From: Imperialibacter roseus
GTDB taxonomy: Bacteria > Bacteroidota > Bacteroidia > Cytophagales > Cyclobacteriaceae
Assembly: GCF_032999765.1 (NCBI RefSeq)
Contig: NZ_CP136051.1
Location: 5,908,501 to 5,972,500, forward strand
Length of the DNA: 64,000 nt
Direction: 5' to 3'
The translations under genes and the position numbers were made by a program. Below, in pieces: positions 39,703 to 42,564 of the stretch (position 1 is its first letter; each line of letters starts with the position of its first letter). Under the pieces are notes generated by a model. The model ran no database searches, had not been told where the DNA came from, and saw nothing but the letters and a program-made list of their open reading frames with translations.

Positions 39703-40809
39703 CTACACCGCCACCATCACCCTCTTATAAAACTTCTCAATAGAAGCGCCAATGGCTTCCCATTCTATAAGAAAGCCATCGTGCCCATAGAGCGAATCGA
39801 TGATATCCAGCGAGGCATCGTCGACATGAGAGGCCAAAAACACCTGCTCATCTATGGGAAACAAAATGTCGGACCTGATGCCAACAAAGTGTGAGTTGGC
39901 TTTTATCTGCGAAAGTGCTTTCTCTATGCTGCCTCTGCCTCTGCCTACGTTATGTGAATCCATCGCTTTTGATAGCCTCCAGTAGCTATAGGCATTGAAA
40001 CGCTTCTTCAGCTTTTCTCCCTGGTACTGCTGATAACTCGACGCCAAATAGTCGTCCGTTTTCTCTGTTGTGTCCTCCTCCTGGGTTCTTTGGTAGGTGA
40101 GGTAGTGCCTGTAAGAAAGCAGGGCGATTGTTCTGGCAGTCTTCATTCCCTCAAGTCCTGCATCCGGTTTACTTTCTTTAAAGGTAGCGTCGTTCGCAAT
40201 CGCCATCCTCTGCGACTCGTTGAAAGCAATGCCCCAGGGTGAATGGTGGGCGTTGGTGGAAACCCCGATGAGGTTCTCGAACACGTCAGGCTCAATAATG
40301 GCCCACTCCAGTGCTTGCTGCCCTCCCATAGAGCCGCCAATGAGGGTGTGGACCTTTTCAAAGCCGAGGGATTTTCTTAATTGAATAAAAGCGCCAACTA
40401 TGTCTCTATTGGTGGGCGTGGGAAAATCGTGAAAGTAGGGCTTGGCTGTCGAAGGGTTTTTATCGAGTGCATTGGTTGAGCCGTAGCAACTCCCCAGCAT
40501 GTTGGCACATATCACAAAAAACTTCTCAGGATCATACACTTTGCCGGGCCCAAACAACCCTGGCCACCACTCTGAAGGATTAGAATTGCCCGTAAGTGCA
40601 TGACACACCCACACAACATTGTTCCTTTCGGGGTTTAGCTTACCAAATGTCGTATAGTGCAAATGGTACTCTGTCAATTCCCGACCGGACTCAAGTTTCA
40701 ATGGCTGGGTCGATCTGTATAATTCCTCGGTTATTTTCACTAAGTCCTCTTCTTTTGGGTTAAAATTCCTCCCGGCCATTGGATGTATAGCCGGGAGGTA
40801 AGTCATCAA
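39703..40809 (-). CDS. metX: homoserine O-acetyltransferase MetX
   Basis: 368 residues, alpha/beta-hydrolase fold. The nucleophilic serine is in HTLIGGSMGGQQALEWAI (about residue 160), with the rest of the triad in IRSDILFPIDEQ and YGHDGFLIEW; the oxyanion region is VWVCHALTGNSNPSEWW. It acetylates homoserine with acetyl-CoA in methionine synthesis. It lies 28 bp after metY and shares its SAM-riboswitch/leader control. Confidence 0.94.
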   Translation of the reverse strand: MMTYLPAIHPMAGRNFNPKEEDLVKITEELYRSTQPLKLESGRELTEYHLHYTTFGKLNPERNNVVWVCHALTGNSNPSEWWPGLFGPGKVYDPEKFFVICANMLGSCYGSTNALDKNPSTAKPYFHDFPTPTNRDIVGAFIQLRKSLGFEKVHTLIGGSMGGQQALEWAIIEPDVFENLIGVSTNAHHSPWGIAFNESQRMAIANDATFKESKPDAGLEGMKTARTIALLSYRHYLTYQRTQEEDTTEKTDDYLASSYQQYQGEKLKKRFNAYSYWRLSKAMDSHNVGRGRGSIEKALSQIKANSHFVGIRSDILFPIDEQVFLASHVDDASLDIIDSLYGHDGFLIEWEAIGASIEKFYKRVMVAV

Positions 40810-40837: not shown

Positions 40838-42175
<1,338 letters not shown>

Positions 42176-42177
42176 TT

Positions 42178-42262
42178 AAAAAATTGCCTGTAACGGGTTG
42201 GCTCCCTGGCCAATAGTCCGTCGTTTGCTGCTAAGCGACAAAGGCAAAAGCGCCTAGCAGCA
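42178..42262 (-). promoter_or_regulatory. putative attenuator: 12-bp hairpin, competing pairing and U6 tract
   Basis: On the minus strand TGCTGCTAGGCG (42262-42251) pairs with CGCTTAGCAGCA (42237-42226), a 12-bp stem with one G-U. Its 5' arm contains the last two Cys codons and stop of the leader ORF. The 13-base loop holds TTGCCT (42247-42242), which can pair instead with AGGCAA (42189-42184), immediately followed by six U (42183-42178). Inside that alternative, TTGGC/GCCAA and ACGG/CCGT can also form. The two folds compete, as in amino-acid attenuators. Base pairing is read directly; the switching mechanism is inference. Confidence 0.6.
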
Positions 42263-42388
42263 CATACAGCAACAACAGCAGGCAAAAGCCGCCCTGATTG
42301 AAAAATTTAATACATGAAATGTGTGAGCCGATGACCGGCCGTGCGATGAGATAGCGACTGTCGCTAGAAGAGATTCCTGATTTTTCAT
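42254..42388 (-). CDS. cysteine-rich leader peptide of metYX
   Basis: A 44-codon ORF from ATG at 42388 to TAG at 42254. It begins MKNQESLLATVAISSHGRSS and ends FACCCCCMCC-stop, with the codon run TGC TGT TGT TGC TGT ATG TGC TGC TAG. It lies between the SAM riboswitch (last paired base 42396) and metY, and its final codons form the 5' arm of the hairpin at 42226-42262. A run of codons for the amino acid related to the downstream pathway, right before a hairpin, is the signature of a ribosome-stalling attenuator. Too short for routine gene calling. Expression is not proven. Confidence 0.65.
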   Translation of the reverse strand: MKNQESLLATVAISSHGRSSAHTFHVLNFSIRAAFACCCCCMCC

Positions 42389-42395
42389 TTTGCTC

Positions 42396-42508
42396 TCAAT
42401 TTATATTCTCCGCCAACCGGCGGATCAGGATTTAGCACCTTACCACCTTGAGTGGCCGGTTGCTAGCGCTTCATAGAGCCTGTCTCTCCACGCTTCTTTA
42501 TAAATCAA
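42396..42508 (-). ncRNA. SAM-I (S-box) riboswitch
   Basis: The minus strand carries the S-box core: GTGGAGAGACAGGCTCTATG (from 42491), AGCAACC, GGTGCTAAATCCTGA, and a closing GAATATAAATT segment. P1 is explicit: TTGATTTATA (42508-42499) pairs with TATAAATTGA (42405-42396) over 10 bp with two wobbles. A small hairpin, CCGCCGGTTGGCGG-like, follows the GGTGCTAAATCC strand. It starts about 18 nt after the predicted transcription start and precedes metYX, the expected target. Binding of SAM should repress methionine synthesis; the expression platform is not a simple adjacent terminator here. Confidence 0.9.
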
Positions 42509-42532
42509 TTGCTAAGAATTGACTTGAAGGCA

Positions 42533-42564
42533 CAAACGTAGATATGCCGAATTATGTTTCCAAA
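42533..42564 (-). promoter_or_regulatory. promoter of the metYX leader
   Basis: On the minus strand TTTG (42564-42561), a 20-base spacer and TACGTTTG (42540-42533) match the Bacteroidota consensus TTTG-N19-21-TAnnTTTG. The start site would be near 42527, about 18 nt before P1 of the SAM riboswitch, which supports both calls. Confidence 0.75.

Follow-up and report, generated by a model that had tools for sequence, protein, structure and literature searches.

A SAM-I riboswitch in tandem with a cysteine-codon leader ORF upstream of metY in Imperialibacter roseus and related bacteria

The metYX leader of Imperialibacter roseus

The window, which is the whole stretch of DNA analysed here, covers 64,000 nt of the Imperialibacter roseus genome (contig NZ_CP136051.1, positions 5,908,501 to 5,972,500). 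On its minus strand, a promoter is followed by a SAM-I aptamer, a short leader ORF, two hairpins and the genes metY and metX. In the order of transcription and in window coordinates, the locus consists of:

42533..42564, minus strand: promoter of the Bacteroidota type, TTTG-N20-TACGTTTG, with TTTG at -33 and TACGTTTG at -7 (pattern match)
42398..42506, minus strand: SAM-I aptamer, RF00162 (cmscan, 80.8 bits, E 1.9e-17, cut-off 44.4)
42389..42397, minus strand: spacer of 9 nt between aptamer P1 and the leader AUG, the first positions of which extend P1 in relatives
42254..42388, minus strand: leader ORF of 44 codons, ending CCCCCMCC-stop, MKNQESLLATVAISSHGRSSAHTFHVLNFSIRAAFACCCCCMCC
42257..42280, minus strand: Cys/Met codon run C5 M C2, adjoining the stop codon
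42226..42262, minus strand: hairpin A, the last two Cys codons and the stop codon paired with a downstream anti-Cys arm (predicted pairing of TGCTGCTAGGCG, 42262-42251, with CGCTTAGCAGCA, 42237-42226)
42192..42222, minus strand: hairpin B, GACGG-ACTA-TTGGC / GCCAA-C-CCGTT (predicted structures)
42178..42183, minus strand: U6 tract, terminator role unsupported
40838..42145, minus strand: metY, O-acetylhomoserine/O-acetylserine sulfhydrylase (TIGR01326, 689.6 bits, cut-off 495.1)
39703..40809, minus strand: metX-like homoserine O-acetyltransferase (best family TIGR01392, 329.5 bits, below the cut-off of 500)

The promoter was labelled with a -33/-7 consensus that we take to be the one of the Bacteroidota. 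Counted over the window alone, this pattern does not stand out from chance (3 matches versus 1.98 expected). In the 100 nt 5' of the aptamer, the arrangement TTG-N17-24-TAnnTTTG was found in 46 of 74 metY loci compared to 0.85 in shuffles, a count that includes the window and leaves out locus L040, where upstream sequence is lacking. Together with the aptamer score, this bears out the first-pass annotation, which had placed a promoter and a SAM-I riboswitch in front of metYX.

The leader ORF starts 145 nt downstream of the -7 box, behind the aptamer, and ends in Cys5-Met-Cys2 as that annotation had read it. The genome, a single contig of 6.75 Mb, contains two SAM-I riboswitches, the one of the window and one before a metH-like gene, at which a Cys leader was not found. 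Searching the same genome for four Cys codons followed by TAR resulted in two matches, neither of which was judged to be a leader; the run of the window, with two Cys codons before the stop, does not fit this pattern. The looser pattern of three Cys codons and then TRR, by which Trp is admitted too, matched 103 times, and 53 times in the backwards control.

Conservation, codon content and target genes

We compared the best 80 of a longer list of metY relatives, upstream DNA included. An aptamer above cut-off is present in 74 of them and was not detected above cut-off at L024 (little upstream sequence), L045, L066, L068, L076 and L081. As a strict Cys leader we counted an ORF of 12-80 codons that has its ATG no more than 25 nt past the aptamer end and in which three or more of the last ten residues are Cys. 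Such a leader is found in 57 of the 74 aptamer-bearing loci, whereas dinucleotide shuffles give 0.22; the 57 include weak members, e.g. L015, L059 and L070. At L015, the ATG lies at +6 and three scattered Cys barely pass the test. A looser criterion (upstream ORF of less than 130 codons with CC and three Cys) recovered 61 of the 80 relatives.

Across the last ten positions of the 57 strict leaders, Cys accounts for 293 of 570 residues, and the last Cys directly adjoins the stop codon in 46 leaders. Both Cys codons are used (TGT 208, TGC 139). Over the 30 nt that precede the stop codon, 58 leaders contain 300 TGY triplets in frame, compared to 63 and 11 in the other two frames. The ORF and its Cys run clearly exceed chance, and the conserved feature is the codons, in frame. 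Conservation of the Cys run in relatives had been proposed as a check in the first-pass annotation, and lack of it as a refutation, which these counts do not bear out; its observation of a SAM-I riboswitch followed by a Cys-codon leader ORF is confirmed and extends beyond the window to relatives, where the tandem is tied to certain sulfur genes. The leader of the window and that of its congener (G001) are too alike for testing selection.

Among the 17 loci with an aptamer but no strict Cys leader, 12 are named Algoriphagus and 14 keep an ATG at +6 to +11. Aptamer and ATG at +8/+9 are retained without a Cys run in the Algoriphagus loci L025, L027, L028, L029, L032, L034, L042, L048, L051, L055, L058 and L065, possibly a natural loss series in which L015 would have its place, too. 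Upstream of a Belliella metY locus, a DUF805 RNA (RF03081) was detected at L039:195-262.

The distance between aptamer and leader is narrowly distributed: 50 of the 57 strict leaders have their AUG 6-11 nt past the aptamer (mode 9, 27 leaders), and several of those with a smaller offset contain another ATG, in the same frame and a few codons later. In 61 rows, including loci without a Cys run, the three positions following the Rfam model of P1 can pair in 90, 84 and 66% and the subsequent ones in 34, 34, 54, 25, 27 and 46%. Overall, pairing of this extension amounts to 51.4% versus a permutation mean of 43.8% (0/2000 as high). The putative extension of P1 towards the leader AUG is new here. 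The short spacing leaves little room for a separate SAM expression platform between aptamer and AUG, and such a platform was not found in the leader, where P1 extends towards the AUG and terminator-like sites lie around the Cys run. The 30S subunit needs the space in which a stable SAM-bound P1 would stand, and we infer that SAM-bound P1 hinders translation of the leader. As most aptamer loci without Cys run keep the ATG at the same distance, the spacing alone is no proof of a gated Cys leader.

Besides Cys, the tails are enriched in Met. In 81 distinct metY leader peptides, the final twelve positions hold 541 residues other than Cys, of which 104 are Met, compared to 32 of 2125 in the earlier part. 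At least one tail Met is present in 62 of the 81 metY leaders, but of the 15 leaders that precede other targets only 3 have one (Fisher p 5e-5, an optimistic value as the rows are related genomes). The run of the window leader contains one Met. A single mutation does not turn a Cys codon into a Met codon, so drift does not explain the tail Met, and the enrichment suggests that besides Cys-tRNA the metY leader probably reads Met-tRNA, too. The Met codons in metY tails are new here and, like the geometry between P1 and AUG and the contrast to metH described below, go beyond the first-pass account.

For the target genes, we read the DNA downstream of 119 riboswitches listed in 52 of the 59 genomes searched, the window's included, and sorted the genes into classes according to which of six reference proteins was nearest in tblastn. 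A strict Cys leader precedes 29 of 41 genes of the metY class, which includes the doubtful member L255 (36% identity), 8 of 19 of the O-acylhomoserine-sulfhydrylase-like class and 7 of 13 unclassified genes. In contrast, no Cys leader was found in this set before metH (0/38), a second metH-type class (0/2), metX (0/4) or cystathionine-gamma-synthase-like genes (0/2). The seven unclassified targets behind a strict Cys leader are a gene of the nitrite/sulfite-reductase family (siroheme; L207, by family scan), a similar reductase-family gene assigned by sequence likeness to the former (L218), a gene that weakly matches the NhaC family (L191), one for an ATP-grasp protein (L211), SusC/TonB-receptor-like genes at L232 and L250 and, at L233, a gene that has no match in NCBIfam or Pfam. 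A PAPS-reductase gene (L209) follows a leader with only two Cys in its tail, which fails the strict test, and no Cys leader was found at L193, which reads as homoserine dehydrogenase.

Additional genes are inserted at some of these loci. At L185, L194, L230 and L236, the SAM-Cys leader is separated from the sulfhydrylase-like gene by a short ferredoxin-like gene, which at L185 scores above cut-off as a YfhL-type 4Fe-4S ferredoxin. At L184, L234 and L258, an OsmC-like gene is located between leader and metY (scan below the family cut-off at L184).

Outside the order of the window, we sampled 90 riboswitches of the phylum (30 best-scoring and 60 picked for spread among the matches listed), one of which was dropped. 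Here, a Cys leader was found at 2 of 45 metY riboswitches, both in family f22, and at none of 44 non-metY riboswitches. With 2/45 outside the order, the tandem seems to be confined to the order of the window and to some related families. At L260, a leader ORF ending in six Cys (stop ending at base 293, reverse strand) lies far from the listed SAM riboswitches of that genome and about 190 nt before a SusC/TonB-receptor-like gene, a kind of target that at L232 and L250 follows riboswitch and Cys leader together.

Structure between the leader ORF and metY

The first-pass annotation had described a hairpin built on the Cys codons, and pairing of the last Cys codons and the stop codon is indeed predicted. 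The probability of hairpin A is 0.87 in the ribosome-free leader, 1.00 when a ribosome stalls at the first Cys codon and 0.00 when it sits at the stop codon. Hairpin B, the outer stem of which was read off predicted structures, is predicted in both ribosome states, stall and stop (0.98-1.00 with a ribosome on the run versus 0.59). No rival terminator to hairpin A appears in the predicted ribosome states of the window leader, and its overall fold is ordinary (z -1.27 and -0.69).

A competing pairing next to the U6 tract had also been proposed. The tract is present, and TTGCCTG (42285-42279) is complementary to CAGGCAA (42190-42184) directly 5' of it, but the role as a terminator did not hold up: the pairing has a probability of 0.03 in the untranslated leader and was rejected as a terminator, and the window consensus scan shows no terminator-like site at the tract. 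With this low value and hairpin B holding in both ribosome states, a clear output switch was not found in the window leader.

The scan of the minus strand of the window yielded three terminator-like sites where 0.6 would be expected, and each of the three overlaps either the Cys run or the stop codon. Among 59 Cys-leader loci, sites overlapping the tail (-60 to +45 nt of the stop) occur in 17 (shuffles 4.9, largest 11) and sites anywhere from tail to gene in 21 (shuffles 4.8), while the remaining 38 have none in this stretch. Enrichment after the leader stop is weak (6/59; shuffles 2.3, sd 1.4), and loci without leader have 4/14 (shuffles 0.7). Because TGY repeats count as a T-rich tail, part of the excess is built in. 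The sites over the Cys run may represent plain intrinsic termination. The last 70 nt before metY contain 9% G in loci with and without leader alike, which would suit Rho, though not specifically.

Pairing between the Cys tail and the downstream sequence is modestly better than chance in aggregate: the mean z across 58 loci is -0.97, with 14 below -1.64, compared to -0.31 and 7 for a control segment. The downstream stretch folding on itself has a mean z of -0.91, and the window's own tail gives no signal (z -0.35).

A hairpin with an RGUGAC loop was noticed between Cys leader and gene in 16 similar leaders (L004, L005, L006, L011, L014, L018, L020, L023, L036, L038, L044, L047, L056, L069, L073 and L237). 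In these, 86.5% of the cells are paired (slid controls 9-44%), a structure that was drawn from the tested sequences and is therefore biased in its favour; RNAalifold alone predicts three inner pairs. Double changes were counted in 17 cells compared to 5.7 in shuffles (0/500 as high) and in six pairs compared to 3.8 (18/500), while the pair types are not in excess (11 versus 11.8). At gathering score, no Rfam family was matched in the 15 loci scanned (L237 left out), and few pairs were predicted when the entire downstream sequence of the group was aligned with MAFFT and folded with RNAalifold. Hairpin B of the window lies in a similar place, but is differently built. Of the covariation that the first-pass annotation had suggested looking for, the part concerning a second hairpin was found in this group, but not for the window's own hairpin.

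Relation to known leaders and a two-input reading

In aptamer sequence, structure and place before methionine genes, the window leader corresponds to SAM-I riboswitches (S-box, RF00162), but it carries a Cys-ending ORF about 9 nt further on, and a separate SAM platform was not found. As in trp-type attenuators, a leader ORF carries a regulatory codon run. In mycobacteria, Canestrari and colleagues reportedly described poly-cysteine leaderless ORFs in 2020. Poly-Cys leaders had been predicted earlier in Actinobacteria (PMC1262725). The likeness consists of a short ORF, a Cys run near the stop, sulfur genes downstream and no obvious terminator; the leader described here belongs to another phylum, is not leaderless, lies behind a riboswitch aptamer and has Met codons in its tail.

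Related two-input or ORF-based leaders are on record. In Mycobacterium tuberculosis, the B12/ppe2 (PMC11260477) and Mbox/pe20 (PMC12810186) riboswitches control translation of a small upstream ORF, as proposed here, the latter with Rho-dependent termination as output; the ligands differ, and the ORF is not described there as an amino-acid-codon sensor. A Xanthomonas SAM-I riboswitch likewise combines SAM and uncharged (initiator) tRNA in one leader (PMC7270179), but its platform binds the tRNA directly and the abstract names no leader ORF. Cys codons predicted to sense charged tRNA-Cys are found in the uORFC-8-2 motif before cysS of Rhodobacterales (PMC8632094), which differs in having two Cys codons and a U-run consistent with an intrinsic terminator and for which no riboswitch is mentioned. 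Two inputs also act on the metE leader of B. clausii, where SAM-I and AdoCbl aptamers in tandem both control transcription termination (PMC2258182). Leader-peptide attenuation before amino acid operons has been described in a Flavobacterium (PMC9723704), and Bacteroides has sORFs that recall leader peptides (PMC7366714). Aptamer and Cys leader are each known singly, and their combination was not reported among the papers listed by searches of the open-access literature.

On balance, we lean slightly towards a two-input leader, in which the SAM aptamer gates an ORF of Cys and Met codons. The extended SAM-bound P1, ending a few bases 5' of the AUG, would hinder initiation on the leader ORF, so that the ORF would be translated at low SAM. 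A ribosome short of charged Cys-tRNA (or Met-tRNA) would stall in the codon run, so that the last codons and the stop stay accessible to the anti-Cys arm; a ribosome that reaches the stop would cover them. Sulfur amino acid shortage would thereby raise and SAM lower metYX expression. As output step, our first guess is Rho-dependent termination and our second an intrinsic terminator at the Cys run that is masked by the translating ribosome, which would suit an aptamer that switches leader translation off. The genome encodes a cystathionine beta-synthase (516.1 bits, cut-off 510.25), so plentiful Met or SAM could supply Cys, and a veto by SAM makes sense. The same leader type on a reductase-family gene favours induction by shortage, since a sulfite reductase, if that is what this gene encodes, would be needed under Cys limitation. 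The first-pass interpretation, one leader that would sense both SAM and charged Cys-tRNA, is supported in part, namely for the tandem of the aptamer with a conserved Cys-codon ORF.

In a rival reading, intrinsic termination does the work, either with the SAM aptamer and a trp-type Cys attenuator acting independently, each on a terminator, as in the first-pass model, or with a terminator-like hairpin at the Cys run that ends transcription whenever the leader is untranslated. Here, the excess of terminator-like sites over the tail, in the window as well as in the Cys-leader loci, the smaller one after the stop and the formation of hairpin A once the last Cys codons are free have to be set against the low pairing probability at the U6 tract, the majority of Cys leaders without any site from tail to gene and the scant room for a separate SAM platform; moreover, we judge the shuffles an unfair null, since TGY repeats mimic a T-rich tail. 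We regard this reading as rather unlikely. The sign of the response could also be reversed. MetY enzymes consume sulfide, and a ribosome stalled by Cys shortage might lower metYX and spare sulfide for cysteine synthesis; hairpin B is likeliest with a ribosome on the run, although stall and stop are not told apart by it. The leader before the reductase-family gene and the Met codons in most metY leaders are, however, what is expected for induction by shortage, and the family name of TIGR01326 also covers cysteine synthase activity, which makes a reversed sign improbable in our view.

Two further explanations deny that the codons are read at all or selected as such. With up to nine Cys in the last ten residues (L010) and extra upstream Cys in some leaders, the ORF could encode a functional Cys-rich peptide, a sensor of metal, redox state or thiols, but the part before the tail differs widely by eye and the run adjoins the stop in most strict leaders; we consider a functional peptide very unlikely. 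The leader peptides did not match a known protein family in NCBIfam (five peptides) or, above cut-off, in Pfam (three). Alternatively, the Cys codons might be a by-product of RNA pairing, of UGY repeats with GCA/ACA, for which the downstream anti-Cys arm in the 16-leader group and in the window could be quoted. The pairing signal is weak, though, and neither the frame bias nor the Met enrichment, unreachable by single TGY mutations, is expected from it, so that we give this explanation hardly any weight; with the frame bias and the 57 of 74 loci far above shuffles, chance and pairing by-product were both rejected as origin of the Cys run.

If the two-input leader is true, it would be a natural example of two-input logic, with a metabolite aptamer and a codon-reading ORF as its components. 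As both inputs lie in one short leader, point changes can test each separately. The genes would be split by logic, with metH riboswitches responding to SAM alone and most metY leaders of these genomes to SAM together with Cys/Met. A more specific version, which we offer as a possibility short of probable, is a composite gate: SAM would permit or forbid translation of the ORF, the ORF would sample both Cys- and Met-tRNAs, and expression of the operon would require low SAM together with a shortage of Cys or Met. The codon mix would then be tuned to the target, with Cys plus Met before metY and mostly Cys alone before the other targets.
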